Of a stretch of DNA of 22,966 bases, positions 5,760 to 18,512 are shown piece by piece; the stretch's first letter is position 1, and each line of letters begins with the position of its first letter. The position numbers and the translations under genes are program-made. The notes beneath the pieces were generated by a model. That model saw only the letters and a list, made by a program, of their open reading frames with translations. It did no database searches and was not told the origin of the DNA. Source of the DNA: a virus; IMG/VR virus record IMGVR_UViG_3300037336_000048, positions 1 through 22,966 of that record. One strand, written 5' to 3'.

Positions 5760-8700
5760 ATGGCGATTGAAGCGCAACTAGCGGACGGACGAATTCTTGA
5801 GTTCCCAGATGGAACCGATCCAACCGTTATACAAAACACAGTTAAGCGCATAATTGCCGAGGGTCAAGCCGCCCAACAGCCCGCGATACCGCAGGAAGAC
5901 CGTGAAGGTTTCGGTGCTGCCGCTGCAGCATCCATGGCGCGTATGGAGGGGGAACGGGCTCTTGCTAAAGGCAAGGCGGGCCTAATTAGTGAAGAAGAAG
6001 CGATGCGCGTATACAACGCGCAAAAAGCTGAGGCCGATCGGCTCTTCACTCCTACAGACGACACTTTCTCGTTTCGCAATCTTAAAGAGCTGGCCGGTGG
6101 CTCCCTGCCGTATATGGCGGCCCCAGTTGCTGCAGGCGTTGCGGGCTCAGTTGCCGGATCAGTTATACCGGGGGTAGGTACGGCGCTTGGTGGTATTGGT
6201 GCATCCTTTGCTGCCTCTGCAGCACAATTCTCTGGCTCCAACTTGGCACGCCAGATCGACGAAGGTAAGTCTTTCCAAGAAGCCTCTGGCGCTAAAGCCC
6301 TTGCAGGCGCACTTCCTATGGCGGCGTTAGACACGTTCGCACTGGGTAAAATTCCCGGCGTTCGCCAAATTCTAGGCCGCGCTGGTATTGAGGTGTCTGA
6401 AGGTGCCGCCGCAGCTATTGCCCGTAAGGGTGTCGCCAATGCCGTAATAGATTACACAACGGCTACTGGTAAAGCCCTGACATACGAAGGCGCAACTGAA
6501 GCCGGACAGCAGTTTATCGAGCGCCTGCAGGCCGGACTAAATATTGGTGATGAAGCCGCACGTGGCGAGTACTTTGACAGCTTTATTGGCGGTGCTATAT
6601 TGGGCGGCGCCATTGCTCCTGCGGGTCGATTCTTAGAACGCCGTGGGGCTCAGAAAGATGTTGAGAATAAAGCCGCAAAAGAGGAAAGCGAAACTCTGCA
6701 GGATCAAGTCCTTGCGAGACAGGCCGAAGAAGAAGCGGTAATCGCTGCGCAGGATATTGACCCCGATGCTTCTGTTGATGATCTACTGCGGGAGCAAGCG
6801 ACCTTACGTAATTCCGGAGAAACGGACCCGGTAACCAGAGCGCGCTTAGCGGCTCTCAACGCGGTAATTCGTCCCCAACTAGCGGGTGATGTAGAAGCCC
6901 TTCGCGCCCAAACTACGGCGGAGCAGGACGTTGCCTTGCAGGAGCAGACCGCGCAGGATGATAACGATGCTAGGGCTCGGGCCAGCGCGTTTTCTACCGC
7001 GGAAGAAGATATATTTGGTAATCTGGTATCTCCTGCCGCAGCGCTATCCACGGAGCCTGAAGTCGAGGCCGCATCTACTCCGGCGGCAATGCGGCGTAGC
7101 CGTCAAGAGGCCAAAGACGCGGGTCAGATAGAGCTGCCACTACGCCGCACACCGGCTGGTCGGCCAACAACTACTCCTATCCCCGAAACGCCGTCAACGA
7201 CTCCCCTGCCTGAAGGGGCGCTATCCCTACAAGACATTAAGGACACGAATGTCCCAATGAAAACCTCAAAGGGCTGGTTCGAGGCGAACGTAGTAGGGAA
7301 AACCCCAGAGGAAGTACAGGCGCTGGTTACTGCGGACCCAACCTTGGTTGTCGGACCCGGAAAGCGCGCCAAAGTACTGCGTGAGATACTAGCACCTATA
7401 CCCCCCGCATTTAAAGAGGCCCCCCGTGACATTATCCTTGCAGAACCGGGACTTACCAATGGACCCGCAGCTACCGAACCTACCGTTTCTGAGCGAGCAA
7501 CAGATGAGTCAAGCTTGGGCCTACCTGATGTCGCCGCTCCCATTGCTGAACCCACCGGAGAGCCTGCAGCATCTGAACAGTCGGGAGTGGTCAGTACTGG
7601 ACTACCTGCTGGAGATGGAGATGCAAAGCCTAAACGAAGCCGCGTACGTACACTAAAACCTGTCCGCGCCGAAGACATAGTTGCCGGAAACGAGCTTAAT
7701 AAATGGCGCACGACCCGCGCCCGCGTAACAACCCCCGGCGCAATGGTTGGTAATACCGAGGTAGAGGCGTTCCTGCATGCGATAGACACTCAAGATGGTG
7801 CGGGTGCGCAGATAGCCCTTGACGACATAGCGCGAGTCCTACGTAGCCTGCCTAAAAGCGGGGATCAAGCTGCGCGTGCGTTTGTTACGTACATGAATAA
7901 GCAGACCGATGGAGGTTTTGACGGCCCGTTGAACAATGCGTTTAACCGTATTAGGGAAACTTCTAGTGCTTCGGCTCCTATAGCTGAGACAGCGCCGCAA
8001 GAGCGCACGCGCCGTAAGGCCCCAGTAGATAAGAAGTATCTCGAGCCGGTACGTATAACTAACGACAATATGGTTGTGCGTAGTAGCCAGCGCTTGCTTG
8101 TCCCTATGGGTGACGACGTTGCTAAGAAGTACCTGATGGAGCGCGGGCTTAATGCGGCGGAACGTAAGCTCGATGAGATAGATGCAGCACCAAAACGCGA
8201 TACACCCCAAGCTGGTCAGCAGGAGCTAGACTTCACCGCGCCTGTACAGGAGGCCAAGAAGCCCAAACCCGTAGAGGCTGCGAAACCTACGGTGCAGCCG
8301 TGGATGGATGACATCGCGTCGCAATTTAACGGTGGTGCTAGAGTCGTTCCTGTGTCTGATACGCTAGCCGTAGCCGTAGTCCAGTCAGCAGAAAAAGACA
8401 ACATAATTATTGGCGTTAAACACAAACCAACTGCCAACGACCCTAACAACTTTACCTACACTACGCAAGATTTATCTGCAGGGATTCCTAAGAGCTTTAC
8501 AGCCGAAGAGACCGCCCTGATAACAGATGCGCATTCTAAGTTAGTTAAAGAGCGCGCTGACTTAGACGCTAAATACCCAGATGGAAAGTTTAGCGCTACG
8601 GACTCAAACGTAAAAGCCACTCCTGCAATGGAGCCCTACGCAAAGTTTGTAGAGGGACTGCTAAAGCAGTTGGGGCTAAGCGATCAACGCATCATACTAA

Positions 8701-11700
8701 TCGCCAGCGGAGAAACGCGCTCTAACCCATTAGCGTATGGCCTGACCCCCAGCATGGAGTGGTTTGATTCAAAACTAGGCGCAGAAACTCAGGGAACGCA
8801 TCGTGCACGCCTTAGTAAGCCCGGGGTCAGCGGAATTACCCTTAACCCCTCCGTGCTAGCTACTGGCGATCGCCAGCTAATTATTGAAACTATTGCGCAC
8901 GAGTTGGGGCACATGATCGAGCATCGTGCGTTGGCGTCTGCCTCTCCGGAGGTCCGCGCAGGTCTACAGAAAGCGCACGAAGCGTGGCTCCGCCAACAAA
9001 AAGGCAAGACCGCCAAAGAGTTAGTAGAAGCGCTACGTAACCGCAAGATGGCGGAGTCTGGCATTAACGCCATGTCGTTCGCGCAGCAAGCAGATTCGGT
9101 AGACACCCCCGCTAGCCGGGAAATGGAAATACATGTCGACTACCTCAAATCGTTTAGCGAGTGGTTTGCGGATAACGTATCCCGCTGGACGACTACAAAC
9201 GAGAAACCAGTTGGGTTGGTCGAGAAGTTCTTTGCAGACCTAGCGAAGCAGTTACGCAAACTAGCTAGTATCGTTACCGGTAAGCGCTTTATGCCAGACC
9301 GCGCAGTAGCCAAGTTTCTGGACGAGATGGGGGCAATGGACTTCACTAGCGTTAACTCGGCATTGAGCGGTCGAGTCGAAAACTTCGCTAAGAGTACGCC
9401 TATTGATGCTATCGTGGCGTCAAGTGAAATGGCTCAGGTGCCGCCCGGCCTAATGACGCGCGCTGTGAAAATGATGATCGAAGCCTTTAGCGCTACCGCA
9501 GGGATTGACTTTGTGGATAAGTTTCGCACGTTGACTGTTGACGCTGCTGCCTCCGCGGAACGACGCTTAAATGTATTGTTTGATGGGGCCGTACGCTCCT
9601 CCAAAGGTATCTTAAACCCGATGGGGCTATACCGCCAAGCTCAGGACACCAGCAAGCTCTTGCTGGATTGGTTCATTGACGGCGCCCTCGCGAAGGACAA
9701 ACTGACCGGCACTTACAGTACTGCCAAAGGCGCGCACTCAATGAACGAGGTGCTGACTATGGTGAAAGCATGGGGTACGGCCAACGGGTACAAGTTCGAA
9801 GAGGCATACAACACGCTCTCTAAAGTGTTTGAGGCTAAACGGCTGGACTCTCTACGTAAAGAAAACGTCATCCTTAAGAGTAACGGCGAGACCCAGTACG
9901 GCATAAACGCGTTATCCAAAAAACGCGAACAGCAGGGAGTTAGCAAAGATCAGCAGATTGACGAGGCGTTGGCGTTTGCTGAGAAACATAAGAAAGCAGT
10001 TGACGAGATTCAAACTGCTATGGACAGCGTTCGTTTCGGCCTAATCGACGGCATGGTATCTACTGGCCGGTTATCTGCGGCGGACGGTGTTAATTGGAAG
10101 AAGAACTCAAACTACATTCCTTTTGAGCGCATGTCCGAGTACGACGACATGTTTCGTACGCAAAAAAGTACGGGTAAGGGGATTTCTCAACTTAAAAAAC
10201 TACCCGAGTTTCTCGGCTCAGAAACCCGTGAAGTCGGCAATACCTTCGACAACTTTGTGAAGACTTCTGGGTGGATGATTGAGCAGACTATAAAGCAAGA
10301 CGCCAACCTTTCCACTCTTAAGATGCTGGAGCGCTTAGGTCAAGCTACTCGTCATCGGGCTAAAGGCAACATATCAGACTCAAAACTCGTGCCCGCGTTC
10401 GACAAGGGCGAGAAGATTTACTACGAGTTGCCTTCTCGCTGGGATGTCATGGCGTTTAAAGACCTCGCACCGCCAAAAGGCGCGTTGGTTAACTTCCTGT
10501 CCAGCTTCTCTAACGTCCTGCGTACAACTATTACGTCCATGCCTCCGTTCGCGGTTCGACAAGTTGTAAACGACATCCAGCGTGCGTTCGCTACGTCGGG
10601 CGTGGAGCAGCCTCTAAAACTCGTGTACCCTGCGCTACGTAACTTTTTAGTAATTAGCGGAGCTGAGTTAATGGGCAGGCGCCATCCTTCCGTACGTGAG
10701 TTTGGGAGACTGGGCGTTATAGGTGATTTTGACTTTAACACTCGCGACCCGATGAGCTCTATCCTGTACGACCTTGGCTACCAGTCCCGCGGTAAAGTAA
10801 AAGAAGTGTTACACCGATTGGAAGGTATTACCCGTGCGTCTGACTTGGCGGTTCGTAAGGCAATCTACGACCAGACCATAGCCGAGAAAGGTGACGCCCT
10901 GCTGGCTACTACACGTTCACGCGAGTTTATTAACTTCCGTAGGCGTGGGGCCAGTAGTGTGATGCCCGCCTTAGCAAGCACCATTCCATTCTTTAACGCG
11001 TACCTGCAGGGTATGGACGTATTGCTTCGCGCCGCCACAGGTAAATCTGCTGCTGCGGGACTAGATAAAGCCGCTGCTAAAAAGATGTTCTATGCGAAGG
11101 TAACGCAGATGGCCGCGTTCTCAACGCTATACGCCATCATGTCTTCTGGTGAAGACTACTACGACGAGGCGGGCCTGCAAATTCGCCACAACAATTGGAT
11201 GTTACCCGGTGGAATCGAGTTTCCGGTGCCAGAGGAATTGGGCGCAATCTTTAAGGTGCCTGCGGAGATGATGGTCGAGTACTTCATGCGTAACGGCACG
11301 AAAGAAGAGATGCAGGCATCGGATGCCACCTTCACTGCGCTAAAGTATGCGTTTGCTCAATACTCCCCAATCGGCGGGCGCATGACTCCAATCCCTGCCG
11401 CCATCAAGCCCGTCATTGAGGCGGTTACAAACTACTCGTTCTTTACAGGACGCGAACTGGAGGGTGTCTACCAACGCAGTCAACTTCTGCCATCACAGCG
11501 TACACGTGGTAACACCAGCGAGCTGGCACAGGCAATATCAAAGTTCACGGAGACTCTCCTTGGAGAAAACAACGCCATCTCCCCCATCATGATCGACAAC
11601 ACACTGCAGGGTTACTTTGGCTCTGTGGCGGGCATAATCACGATGGGTACAGACCAGTTGATAAACCCTGACCGGATGGACCGCCCCCTGCAGAAATACT

Positions 11701-12065
11701 GGATGCTGAGTAACTTCCTATACGACCCAATTGGTAGCCGCCGCTTAGACGAGTTCTACGAGTTGCGCAGCAAGACGTTTGGGGTAAAAGGTACGCTGGA
11801 TAAACTGGCCAAGGAAGACCCCGATGCCGCAGTGAAGTTCGCAAACGAGCACATAAACGAACTGTCGCTGGCGCAAGGTATTGGCTCGGCACTAGGACAA
11901 CTCTCCGACACGCGCAAGTACAAGAACTACCTAAACTCAAATATGGCGGCGCAGTCGATGAGCCAAGACGAGCGTGCGACCAGTATGGAAGAGACTCGTC
12001 GTCTGGAGCAGGGGCTGGTCGGTTGGCTACGTGAAGTTCAGGCGGATATGAACAAGGCTAAGTAA
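5760..12065 (+). CDS. Giant ejection-type protein with HExxH metallopeptidase motif and LPD38-like region, 2101 aa
   Basis: The N-terminus (AQLADGRILEFPDGTDPTVI) is a signature I know from the large internal virion proteins of T7-like and pelagic phages. Residues about 113-190 form a Gly/Ala-rich hydrophobic region that could enter a membrane. Residues about 295-420 are charged and probably coiled-coil; a Pro/Thr-rich linker follows. At residues 1047-1055 is HELGHMIEH, the HExxHxxxH form of a zinc metallopeptidase site, with SEWFAD about 90 residues later as possible further ligand region. The C-terminal part (about 1500-1800: LRTTITSMPPFAVRQVVND, then IPFFNAYLQGMDVLLRA) resembles LPD38 of polyvalent proteins. 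T7 gp16 carries a transglycosylase at its N-terminus instead; I see none here. Inferred role: injected with DNA and opens a path through the cell wall. The start at 5760 has only a weak GTGAG upstream. Confidence 0.75.
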   Translation: MAIEAQLADGRILEFPDGTDPTVIQNTVKRIIAEGQAAQQPAIPQEDREGFGAAAAASMARMEGERALAKGKAGLISEEEAMRVYNAQKAEADRLFTPTDDTFSFRNLKELAGGSLPYMAAPVAAGVAGSVAGSVIPGVGTALGGIGASFAASAAQFSGSNLARQIDEGKSFQEASGAKALAGALPMAALDTFALGKIPGVRQILGRAGIEVSEGAAAAIARKGVANAVIDYTTATGKALTYEGATEAGQQFIERLQAGLNIGDEAARGEYFDSFIGGAILGGAIAPAGRFLERRGAQKDVENKAAKEESETLQDQVLARQAEEEAVIAAQDIDPDASVDDLLREQATLRNSGETDPVTRARLAALNAVIRPQLAGDVEALRAQTTAEQDVALQEQTAQDDNDARARASAFSTAEEDIFGNLVSPAAALSTEPEVEAASTPAAMRRSRQEAKDAGQIELPLRRTPAGRPTTTPIPETPSTTPLPEGALSLQDIKDTNVPMKTSKGWFEANVVGKTPEEVQALVTADPTLVVGPGKRAKVLREILAPIPPAFKEAPRDIILAEPGLTNGPAATEPTVSERATDESSLGLPDVAAPIAEPTGEPAASEQSGVVSTGLPAGDGDAKPKRSRVRTLKPVRAEDIVAGNELNKWRTTRARVTTPGAMVGNTEVEAFLHAIDTQDGAGAQIALDDIARVLRSLPKSGDQAARAFVTYMNKQTDGGFDGPLNNAFNRIRETSSASAPIAETAPQERTRRKAPVDKKYLEPVRITNDNMVVRSSQRLLVPMGDDVAKKYLMERGLNAAERKLDEIDAAPKRDTPQAGQQELDFTAPVQEAKKPKPVEAAKPTVQPWMDDIASQFNGGARVVPVSDTLAVAVVQSAEKDNIIIGVKHKPTANDPNNFTYTTQDLSAGIPKSFTAEETALITDAHSKLVKERADLDAKYPDGKFSATDSNVKATPAMEPYAKFVEGLLKQLGLSDQRIILIASGETRSNPLAYGLTPSMEWFDSKLGAETQGTHRARLSKPGVSGITLNPSVLATGDRQLIIETIAHELGHMIEHRALASASPEVRAGLQKAHEAWLRQQKGKTAKELVEALRNRKMAESGINAMSFAQQADSVDTPASREMEIHVDYLKSFSEWFADNVSRWTTTNEKPVGLVEKFFADLAKQLRKLASIVTGKRFMPDRAVAKFLDEMGAMDFTSVNSALSGRVENFAKSTPIDAIVASSEMAQVPPGLMTRAVKMMIEAFSATAGIDFVDKFRTLTVDAAASAERRLNVLFDGAVRSSKGILNPMGLYRQAQDTSKLLLDWFIDGALAKDKLTGTYSTAKGAHSMNEVLTMVKAWGTANGYKFEEAYNTLSKVFEAKRLDSLRKENVILKSNGETQYGINALSKKREQQGVSKDQQIDEALAFAEKHKKAVDEIQTAMDSVRFGLIDGMVSTGRLSAADGVNWKKNSNYIPFERMSEYDDMFRTQKSTGKGISQLKKLPEFLGSETREVGNTFDNFVKTSGWMIEQTIKQDANLSTLKMLERLGQATRHRAKGNISDSKLVPAFDKGEKIYYELPSRWDVMAFKDLAPPKGALVNFLSSFSNVLRTTITSMPPFAVRQVVNDIQRAFATSGVEQPLKLVYPALRNFLVISGAELMGRRHPSVREFGRLGVIGDFDFNTRDPMSSILYDLGYQSRGKVKEVLHRLEGITRASDLAVRKAIYDQTIAEKGDALLATTRSREFINFRRRGASSVMPALASTIPFFNAYLQGMDVLLRAATGKSAAAGLDKAAAKKMFYAKVTQMAAFSTLYAIMSSGEDYYDEAGLQIRHNNWMLPGGIEFPVPEELGAIFKVPAEMMVEYFMRNGTKEEMQASDATFTALKYAFAQYSPIGGRMTPIPAAIKPVIEAVTNYSFFTGRELEGVYQRSQLLPSQRTRGNTSELAQAISKFTETLLGENNAISPIMIDNTLQGYFGSVAGIITMGTDQLINPDRMDRPLQKYWMLSNFLYDPIGSRRLDEFYELRSKTFGVKGTLDKLAKEDPDAAVKFANEHINELSLAQGIGSALGQLSDTRKYKNYLNSNMAAQSMSQDERATSMEETRRLEQGLVGWLREVQADMNKAK

Positions 12066-16361: not shown

Positions 16362-16754
16362 TTAATTTGCACGCGAACGAGTGACCGTAACAGCATAACG
16401 TGAGACTACGTTAGTACCTTCGGGCAGCAAGTCTGGGCGCTGGTTTATGAATTCTGCGAAAGCGGTTTGGCTGAGTCGTCTCTCAAGAAGTTCGGGTACA
16501 CCGTGCTCCTTAACAAACTCATACATCCGTCCCCAGTCGCTCGTGTCATAACGGGTTTTGACCGAACGCTTGAAAGAACCGAACTCGGTCTTCCCGCCAT
16601 CTTGGCCAGTATCTTTACACAACTGCAGAAGCTCTTGCTCAATTACATCGAGCTGTACCTGCAGAACATCAATTATTTTTTTAGCTTCCGTTTCGGCTTC
16701 GCGCTTTGCGTCCCGAATCTTAACGTAGGCTTTTATCAGCTTCTGTACGTCCAT
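16362..16754 (-). CDS. Conserved phage coiled-coil protein, 130 aa
   Basis: The start is the ATG at 16754, with AAGGAG at 16762-16767 and 7-nt spacing; the upstream in-frame extension would run through the structured leader and is rejected. Residues 1 to about 48 are a long charged helix (VQKLIKAYVKIRDAKREAE, then QVQLDVIEQELLQLCKD), likely coiled-coil. The second half has KTEFGSFKRSVKTRYDTSDW and LLERRLSQTAFAEF, a layout I know from many phage early proteins of unknown function beside SSB genes and sometimes compared with Gam or Gp157-type proteins. I do not claim that function. It is the first gene after the sigma70-type promoter, with 21 nt between its stop and the SSB-like start. Confidence 0.75.
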   Translation of the reverse strand: MDVQKLIKAYVKIRDAKREAETEAKKIIDVLQVQLDVIEQELLQLCKDTGQDGGKTEFGSFKRSVKTRYDTSDWGRMYEFVKEHGVPELLERRLSQTAFAEFINQRPDLLPEGTNVVSRYAVTVTRSRAN

Positions 16755-16773
16755 TCTCTTTCTCCTTATAGGT

Positions 16774-16848
16774 ATGAGCGGGGGCTCACATAAAGCAGTG
16801 TTTTCATCCACCAACACTACGGCGCTAACCCGTATCTCCCCCGCCCAT
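16774..16848 (-). ncRNA. Candidate structured 5' leader (three-way junction) of the coiled-coil/SSB/HTH operon
   Basis: The transcript from the adjoining promoter is predicted to begin at about 16848. There it enters P1, an 11-bp helix (AUGGGCGGGGG at 16848-16838 with CCCCCGCUCAU at 16784-16774, one G-U pair). P1 encloses P2 (UACGG/CCGUA, 16834-16830 with 16822-16818, 7-nt loop) and P3 (GUGUU/AACAC, 16817-16813 with 16802-16798, 10-nt loop), with no bases between P2 and P3. The P1 3' strand ends 6 nt before the AAGGAG ribosome site of the coiled-coil gene. The layout resembles translational leader RNAs, but I match it to no known riboswitch class. The fold was drawn by hand. Confidence 0.5.
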
Positions 16849-16855
16849 GAATCAA

Positions 16856-16883
16856 ATTATACACTGTCAATCCTTTGAGTCAA
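16856..16883 (-). promoter_or_regulatory. Sigma70-type promoter for coiled-coil/SSB/HTH genes
   Basis: On the minus strand, TTGACT (16883-16878) is followed after 16 nt by a perfect TATAAT (16861-16856). The -35 box overlaps the stop codon of the SNF2 helicase gene (TGA, 16880-16882). This is the best promoter in the window and points to use of host RNA polymerase for this sub-operon. The predicted start of transcription is about 16848. Confidence 0.8.
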
Positions 16884-18436
16884 GGACTTTCTATTTCTTG
16901 TTTGTAAAGTTCTACAAGGTCCATGTGCATGTCGATCTTTTGCCCCAACATAACGTACATCCGCTTCTCTACAGGCGACCCTTGCAGGTGGGTGACTGTA
17001 ACCTTATTCTTCTGCCCTTGGCGGTGTGCACGCGAATTTGCTTGTAAATAAATCTCGGTGGAGCTTACTGGACCCCACCACACTACTTGGTCAGCGCGAG
17101 TCAACGTGATACCGTGCGCAGTCGCTTGCGGAACCATTAACAAGATACGCACGTTGTCTTCGGTTTGAAAGTCCTTAATAATCTCGGCTCGGTTCGGTGC
17201 TGATATTCCCCCGTGGATTGTGGCTGATGTATACCCTGCCGCACGAATCTTATCTTCCACCAACGTCAACGCGTGGCGATACGGTATAAACACCAATACC
17301 TTCTGGTCGGTTTGGTCGATCACATCCACCAGCGCCTTGAATCGGTTAGCCACATCAAACTCCACCACGTCCCTATCGTCCGTATACACCGCCCCTTGTG
17401 AAATCTGCAGCAGCTTGTTCAGCATCGACGCGGCGTTCACTGCGGTAATCTCAGCGCCAGCGGCTAGTGCCACCATTTGCTGCTTAATGTTTGTGTAGTA
17501 CTTACTCTGCTGGGGGGTCAATGGTACATCTCTAACCGAGTACAACAGGTCAGGCAGGTCTAGGCACTCTTCCTTAGTGAACCGAATCGCTGGCTGTAAG
17601 GCTTTATGTACGACATCCTTGGAGTCCTGCTTTGGCACCCACTTGTACTGCGTAATCTTAACCATGACTTGATCCCGAAACTTTCCATAGAACATCGGCA
17701 CGGTGCTGGGGTTAACCAGCTTGGCCAGACCATACGCATCAAGCGGTGACTGAGAGGCCGGTGTGCCCGTCATAAGCCACAACCTAGTAGTTGGGTCCGT
17801 CAGCGCCGCGATCGACTTCCAGCGGTCTGTCTGCACGTTCTTAATGGCGTTGGCTTCGTCCACAATAATCAAATCAAACCCGCCCGCCTTCAACTCCTTC
17901 TCGACTACCTTCACACCGTCAAAGTTGATGATGACAAATTCGTAGTCCTTGCTGAGGACTGCCTTGCGTTGCTCCCTACTGCCCTGCGCAATAGCACATG
18001 AGCGGTGCATGACAATCTTGAACAAGTCTGAGCGCCACGCGGTATCCATAATAGATACAGGGCAGACAACCAGTACCCGTTTGATTAGCCCCTTGTTCAT
18101 CAGGTAGTCGGCAGCCCATGCCGCCGCAGCGGTCTTACCTGTACCCGCCTCGTTAAACACAAAGCAGCGGGGGTGCGTGGCTAAGAAAACCGCGGTGTCC
18201 CTCTGGTGATTGAACGGGGTGTACATACCGGGCCACTTGTACCGTCCCAGAATGGGATGAGGTACATCTTTGATGCCGAGGTTACGCAGAATCCGCATCT
18301 CGTCCAAGTCCCAATGAACCATGACTTTTGATACGCCATCGTTCTCGTCAAGGATGTGGCTCTTAGGTATGAGCGCAGTGATTTGTGACGCCTTCCGTGT
18401 ATTAAACACGAGCGCCCTGTCTTGCAGGATTTCCAT
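16880..18436 (-). CDS. SNF2/Rad54-type superfamily 2 helicase (ATPase), 518 aa
   Basis: An ATP-driven DNA translocase or helicase, probably acting in phage replication or recombination. Motifs in order: HQRDTA near residue 77 (Q-like region), Walker A NEAGTGKT at 95-102, VLVVCPVSIM (motif Ia) at 121, LIIVDEANAIKN with DEAN at 193-196 (motif II, more usually DEAH), LMTGTPAS (motif III) at 221, then in the second RecA fold VLVFIPYRHAL (IV), ATAHGITLTRADQVVWW (V) and SRAHRQGQ (VI) at 468-475. The ATG at 18436 is preceded by GGTGG; a longer reading from 18502 is rejected because it would run through a terminator hairpin. The length is that of short phage SNF2 proteins, without extra domains. The gene lies alone between a terminator-like hairpin and the next promoter. 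Confidence 0.88.
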   Translation of the reverse strand: MEILQDRALVFNTRKASQITALIPKSHILDENDGVSKVMVHWDLDEMRILRNLGIKDVPHPILGRYKWPGMYTPFNHQRDTAVFLATHPRCFVFNEAGTGKTAAAAWAADYLMNKGLIKRVLVVCPVSIMDTAWRSDLFKIVMHRSCAIAQGSREQRKAVLSKDYEFVIINFDGVKVVEKELKAGGFDLIIVDEANAIKNVQTDRWKSIAALTDPTTRLWLMTGTPASQSPLDAYGLAKLVNPSTVPMFYGKFRDQVMVKITQYKWVPKQDSKDVVHKALQPAIRFTKEECLDLPDLLYSVRDVPLTPQQSKYYTNIKQQMVALAAGAEITAVNAASMLNKLLQISQGAVYTDDRDVVEFDVANRFKALVDVIDQTDQKVLVFIPYRHALTLVEDKIRAAGYTSATIHGGISAPNRAEIIKDFQTEDNVRILLMVPQATAHGITLTRADQVVWWGPVSSTEIYLQANSRAHRQGQKNKVTVTHLQGSPVEKRMYVMLGQKIDMHMDLVELYKQEIESP

Positions 18437-18455
18437 ATACCACCAATATAACAAA

Positions 18456-18489
18456 CACACAAAAAGGGCTCGGAAGCGAACTTCCGGGC
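18456..18489 (-). terminator. Rho-independent terminator with UUCG loop, just upstream of the SNF2 gene
   Basis: On the minus strand GCCCGGAAG, a UUCG tetraloop and CUUCCGAGC form a 9-bp stem with one G-U pair, followed by CC and UUUUUGUGUG. This is a textbook intrinsic terminator. It lies after the HNH gene and its hairpin ends 31 nt before the SNF2 start codon; no sigma70-type promoter is visible in between. SNF2 expression should therefore depend on read-through or antitermination, or on an unrecognised phage promoter. Confidence 0.8.
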
Positions 18490-18512
18490 TAAATTCCAAC
18501 AAGGATAGAACC

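Follow-up and report, generated by a model that had tools for sequence, protein, structure and literature searches.

A phage replication operon begins with a predicted RNA element, here called type A, whose structure and conservation, consisting of three helices (P1, P2 and P4) with invariant loops, are well shown by comparison of copies from related phages. We tentatively favour, with a little less than even confidence, the reading that type A is a portable accessory RNA module that would act through its own fold and that here also serves as a 5'-terminal leader. The DNA examined, called the window throughout, comprises all 22,966 bases of a virus record in IMG/VR. The hundreds of copies in environmental phages, their invariant complementary loops and the lack of an Rfam family imply a conserved partner, one that is either required or exploited by many phages.

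The leader and its predicted fold

The features around the start of the operon, all on the minus strand, are the following:

16880-18502, minus strand: helicase gene, SNF2 family, ending inside the promoter
16856-16883, minus strand: sigma70-type promoter TTGACT-16-TATAAT, 11/12 consensus, overlapping the helicase gene stop codon
16767-16855, minus strand: whole type-A element with flanks, matched by covariance model R1 with 72.0 bits and E 6.8e-24, the R1 training set including this leader (L002)
16838-16848, minus strand: P1 5' arm, ATGGGCGGGGG, its first base the predicted +1, pairing with 16774-16784
16818-16834, minus strand: P2 hairpin, TACGG-GTTAGCG-CCGTA, loop 16823-16829, loop AGC invariant
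16801-16817, minus strand: J2/3, GTGTTGGTGGATGAAAA, hypervariable, holding the 5' part of a previously proposed hairpin, P3
16787-16800, minus strand: P4 hairpin, CAC-UGCUUUAU-GUG, predicted from covariation, loop GCU invariant and complementary to the AGC of P2
16774-16784, minus strand: P1 3' arm, CCCCCGCTCAT, pairing with 16838-16848
16762-16767, minus strand: Shine-Dalgarno AAGGAG, assigned by sequence, outside the fold
16362-16754, minus strand: first gene, 130-aa coiled-coil-type protein, PHROG 13900
15185-15159, minus strand: strong intrinsic terminator inside the operon, between the HTH gene and the DUF927 primase/helicase gene

The promoter, which a preliminary description of this DNA had pointed out and which is indeed present on the minus strand, far outscores the other three candidates found in the 11 kb scanned, and the transcription start (+1) is predicted from its position. 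The end of the -10 box lies 7 nt from the start of P1, an 11-bp helix including one G-U pair that, as also described before, runs from the predicted +1 and leaves 6 nt between its closing pair and AAGGAG. From P1 to the ATG of the 130-aa protein there are 19 nt; the resemblance of this protein to Mu Gam/Gp157 and Pam3 gp33 domains is weak and below cutoff. The folding energy of the leader is -32.7 kcal/mol, compared with -24.6 +/- 3.2 kcal/mol for shuffled sequences (z -2.5, 3/200). Between 16848 and 16754 we found neither a U-tract hairpin nor a terminator, and the leader fold does not cover the Shine-Dalgarno; the leader therefore has no visible expression platform. ARAGORN predicted neither a tRNA nor a tmRNA in the window.

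Inside P1 the preliminary description had placed two 5-bp hairpins, P2 and P3. P2 holds up, and P3 (GTGTT/AACAC, 16817-16798) is present in the window sequence, where, taken alone, the fold with P3 (-29.8 kcal/mol) is favoured over that with P4 (-28.4 kcal/mol) by 1.4 kcal/mol. The two hairpins are mutually exclusive, because P3 uses the CAC that belongs to P4. In relatives the region of P3 is hypervariable and the overlapping P4 is conserved instead; the check for paired substitutions in related phages thus bears out P1 and P2 and replaces P3 with P4.

Covariation and invariant loops

With patterns that fix parts of the loops we gathered at least 220 distinct copies, and a structure alignment was built from 74 non-redundant ones. 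Paired cells made up 79.9% of this alignment against 60.7% after shuffling, the score was 0.496 against 0.169 (0/500 shuffles), and when the registers were slid by 1-3 columns pairing was only 30-43%. In the alignment, 95% of P2 cells are paired, with double changes in the three outer pairs, and the middle pair of P4, paired in 100%, occurs as A-U, G-C, C-G and U-A; the innermost pairs of P2 and P4 are uninformative because the search pattern preset them. The score of P1 is lowered in a fixed alignment because this helix has two registers relative to P2, and when scored copy by copy it reached at least 6 in 220 of the 222 matches listed. Among the matches listed, P2 contains 25 G-U pairs and 3 A-C mismatches, an asymmetry that argues for function as RNA of this strand.

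When loop 1 was left unconstrained, AGC occurred in all 107 distinct copies among the matches listed and the loop ends varied; with loop 2 unconstrained, GCU was present in 119/119 distinct copies among the matches listed, followed by two variable bases, and the U at the start and the AU at the end of this loop were near-invariant as well. The resulting consensus is N-U-Y-A-G-C-N for the P2 loop and U-G-C-U-N-N-A-U for the P4 loop, in which AGC and GCU are the only invariant triplets. Since these are mutually complementary, we infer that P2 and P4 may dock by an AGC-GCU kissing contact to give a compact fold. A scan for copies with a changed G in AGC, leaving the loop-2 partners free, found none, and the invariance of both triplets puts the contact beyond a covariation test; nor is it proof of kissing, because an outside ligand could fix both triplets as well. 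J2/3 ranges from 11 to 44 nt in 114 non-redundant copies and differs even between close relatives. It contains UCCU in 39 of these 114 copies (8.4 expected); the window's own J2/3 lacks it.

A cassette at the start of similar operons

Searches with three proteins of the operon yielded about 100 loci in which the helicase gene is followed by those for the coiled-coil and then the SSB-like protein. Nearly all of them retain the promoter, including its -10 TATAAT, but not the leader: among 56 distinct leaders of the gene cluster, 8 carry type A, 2 carry a motif B (GGGGAAAGCGGATGCTG...CAGACGCAGCGAGTACC) and 46 neither. Of the remaining leaders a few form nothing more than a plain stem (GTGGG..CCCAC, for example); most are short and unstructured, as is the leader at the same site in most relatives whose SSB-like protein is ~60-70% identical. 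There is a single insertion point, 6-7 nt after the -10 box and hence at +1, and the ancestral leader, where recognisable, resumes past the insert (L076: ..ATC/GTGGGC..GCCCACACCCA/GTTCAACGCAAATCAAAGG). Judged from these leaders, the element is a cassette: exactly at the predicted +1 it is either there or missing, and motif B or a bare stem can take its place. Since otherwise similar operons differ in having or lacking it at +1, nature supplies with/without pairs for a direct test. R1 also matches L007, L008 and further contigs. Within the window's own group, L008 compensates in P1 (GGCGGGG to GGTGAGG with CCCCGCT to CCTCACC), L009 does so similarly, and L007 maintains the pairing through G-U. 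Motif B, in the form GGGAAAGCGGATGCTG...CAGACGCAGCGAGTACCC, was seen at 10 loci (L057, L084, L131, L141, L146, L217, L228, L278, L300 and L302).

The preliminary description had further called one downstream product SSB-like and suggested that the leader controls the downstream genes through it. We could not confirm the identity: the protein had no Pfam match and no PDB sequence match, and its AlphaFold2 model was poor (mean pLDDT 50) and gave no fold match. The proposed control is not supported, given the scarcity of type A among leaders of the same cluster and its occurrence elsewhere before unrelated genes or in arrays, and the SSB-like product is an unlikely ligand because most of its relatives lack such a leader.

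Genomic contexts

A promoter with at least 9/12 consensus lies upstream of 37 of 132 copies, and in 29 of these 37 its -10 box ends 6-7 nt before P1, which places P1 at +1 repeatedly. Most promoter-linked copies are followed by a member of the coiled-coil gene family seen here, an association that recurs in several phage clades, and some by a Cro-like gene. Downstream of copies that lack such a promoter, the genes include those for a terminase small subunit, a primase and a winged-helix protein. Other phages have type A as part of long non-coding arrays that also contain further structured modules, and tRNA-Met follows two of the copies. In such non-coding stretches a conserved hairpin frame, CATGGGGAYTG...CARTCCCCAGCC, brackets varied small cores, twice type A itself. 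Among the 220 copies listed, the promoter lies at +1 in 34 and the hairpin frame adjoins 65, one copy having both. These neighbouring arrays of structured modules point to more undescribed phage RNAs.

The frame, in the form A[CA]RCATGGGGAYTG...CARTCCCCAGCCGTG, was also observed to bracket many different structured cores in phage non-coding arrays, at loci that include L117, L126, L129, L131, L142, L202, L211, L218, L220, L222, L302, L367 and L371, and the frame loci scanned gave no Rfam match. At L132, L201, L220 and L223 a conserved non-coding stretch of ~400-500 nt lies near type A, downstream of a promoter-like site of its own; it is not GOLLD by Rfam.

Distribution in viruses and bacterial genomes

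The pattern GGGTTAGYGCC-N15..45-CTGCTTYATG matched at least 120 stretches in IMG/VR viral contigs, where ~2 were estimated by chance from pattern length and collection size, and the element was single in 26 of 27 matched contigs, including contigs of 50-60 kb. The same pattern gave 17 matches in bacterial and archaeal genomes against a chance estimate of ~15. Roughly 8 of the 17 fit the model well, 7 of them in Burkholderiales or other betaproteobacteria, and several well-fitting copies adjoin phage genes for a repressor or for replication. Genome matches at chance level, L232, L234, L237-L240 and L243-L245 among them, were excluded from the model. A copy was found in 6 of 401 sampled genomes from the family of one positive genome, and in broader samples of that genome's phylum and of another phylum the starting genome was the only one with a copy. 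Hosts are not given in IMG/VR records; judged by these genome matches and by the family and phylum samples, many of them are probably Burkholderiales.

No copy was found in isolated phages with related proteins (Xp15, Rollin, HHU4, Limnohabitans DC33, BPP-1, Amjad_SA and two spring phages), and a 17-bit match in another such phage, RHph_TM29, was not credited. In Achromobacter dolens (G005, C12:67703-67906) a tandem pair of type-A matches lies beside phage-like genes, and a Curvibacter copy (L235), flanked by gyrA and a divergently oriented gene, seems not to belong to a prophage.

Comparison with known RNAs

Agreeing with the earlier remark that the leader matches no known class, Rfam 15 at gathering thresholds returned no family in the window or in 15 type-A loci, and permissive scans gave only weak sub-threshold matches. 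A literature search with the conserved strings found no relevant paper; it covered few subscription journals and no preprints, so that an earlier description is possible.

Purine-riboswitch-type RNAs are three-way junctions with kissing loops, and in type A, too, P1 closes two hairpins with complementary loops; type A differs in that its invariant bases lie in the loops and J2/3 is hypervariable, as well as in having no Rfam match. T4 gene 32 has an autoregulatory leader, to which a leader near a gene claimed to be SSB-like bears some likeness, but here the SSB identity is unconfirmed and most relatives of that gene are without the element. HK022 put RNA suppresses termination through the zinc-binding domain of the RNA polymerase beta' subunit. 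HK022 putL shares with type A its two hairpins, its small size (~70 nt) and its place at the front of an early phage transcript, just downstream of the promoter, whereas the large closing helix of type A has no counterpart in the put description consulted (PMC9378689). R1 had no match in bases 1-40000 of HK022 at E<=10. GOLLD and ROOL are structured phage non-coding RNAs, often near tRNA islands, with kissing loops (PMC12286853); the type-A copies in long arrays or beside tRNA-Met recall them, but type A is a ~75-nt domain, and neither family was matched in the window or the loci scanned.

Possible functions

The accessory module is the reading that we preferred after an expression platform, a put-like role, an SSB ligand and a plain cap had each fitted poorly. 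P1, starting at +1, would enclose P2, the hypervariable J2/3 and P4, and kissing between P2 and P4 would compact the fold, so that the module could dock a conserved host or phage factor, display the variable J2/3 strand, or both, rather than switch a single gene. In this phage it would form the 5' terminus of the replication-operon mRNA and thereby also cap the 5' end; in other phages it would be expressed within the non-coding RNA arrays. In its favour we count the covariation, the G-U/A-C asymmetry, the complementary invariant loops, the repeated start of P1 at +1, the single copies per contig, the cassette-like presence and absence, the arrays with other modules and the UCCU enrichment in J2/3. 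Points against it are the lower stability of P4 than of P3 in the window sequence alone, the lack of UCCU in the window's own J2/3, and the frequent position of promoter-linked copies before the same gene family, which is compatible with regulation in cis. Under such regulation type A would be a translational operator or riboswitch, and how strongly the first gene is translated would depend on the binding of a small molecule or of a protein such as the SSB-like product. The closing helix adjoins the Shine-Dalgarno, at least 24 copies lie between +1 and a Shine-Dalgarno, and the coiled-coil gene family recurs downstream in several clades; we nevertheless judge this unlikely, given the free Shine-Dalgarno, the absent terminator, a very stable P1, a J2/3 junction that is not conserved as a ligand pocket would be, the 46 of 56 gene relatives with neither A nor B, and the many copies that do not precede a gene. 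Sequestration of the Shine-Dalgarno by J2/3 was rejected, pairing with its own Shine-Dalgarno (-7.0 kcal/mol) being no better than with swapped ones (-7.4 kcal/mol).

That type A is a cis-acting antiterminator of the HK022 put type, binding RNA polymerase as it leaves the promoter, we consider very doubtful. Besides the resemblance to putL, the operon does contain a terminator (15185-15159), with ~20 nt to the next start in the window and kept in most relatives. Most relatives that lack the element have this terminator all the same, however, while in some that carry the element it is absent or undetected, and because this test of co-occurrence showed no correlation a put-like role is unsupported; many copies, moreover, are not promoter-proximal. 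A simple 5'-terminal structure that shields the mRNA from decay, the details of its core mattering little, would suit a fold that starts at +1 and relatives that have only a plain stem or motif B there. We rate it as quite unlikely, since a plain hairpin needs no invariant loops, array copies lie away from the 5' end, and a cap leaves both the loops and the single copies per genome unexplained. Such small invariant loops, one copy per genome and the co-location with other small structured phage motifs could also belong to a self-cleaving ribozyme or to a DNA-level element such as a single-strand initiation site, but the G-U/A-C asymmetry and the alignment with +1 point to RNA and no Rfam ribozyme was matched, which makes this highly improbable. 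A wider reading, which we regard as unlikely, extends the accessory module to a cassette system: type A would be one of several exchangeable RNA cores on swappable stems, largely in Burkholderiales phages, placed at the +1 of an early operon or in frame-bracketed arrays, and its kissing-loop scaffold would display the fast-evolving J2/3, which would act in trans on RNAs or proteins of the host or of defence.

Elsewhere in the window, on the plus strand, a single open reading frame (5760-12065) encodes a 2101-aa product that weakly resembles minor head/DNA pilot proteins of phages.
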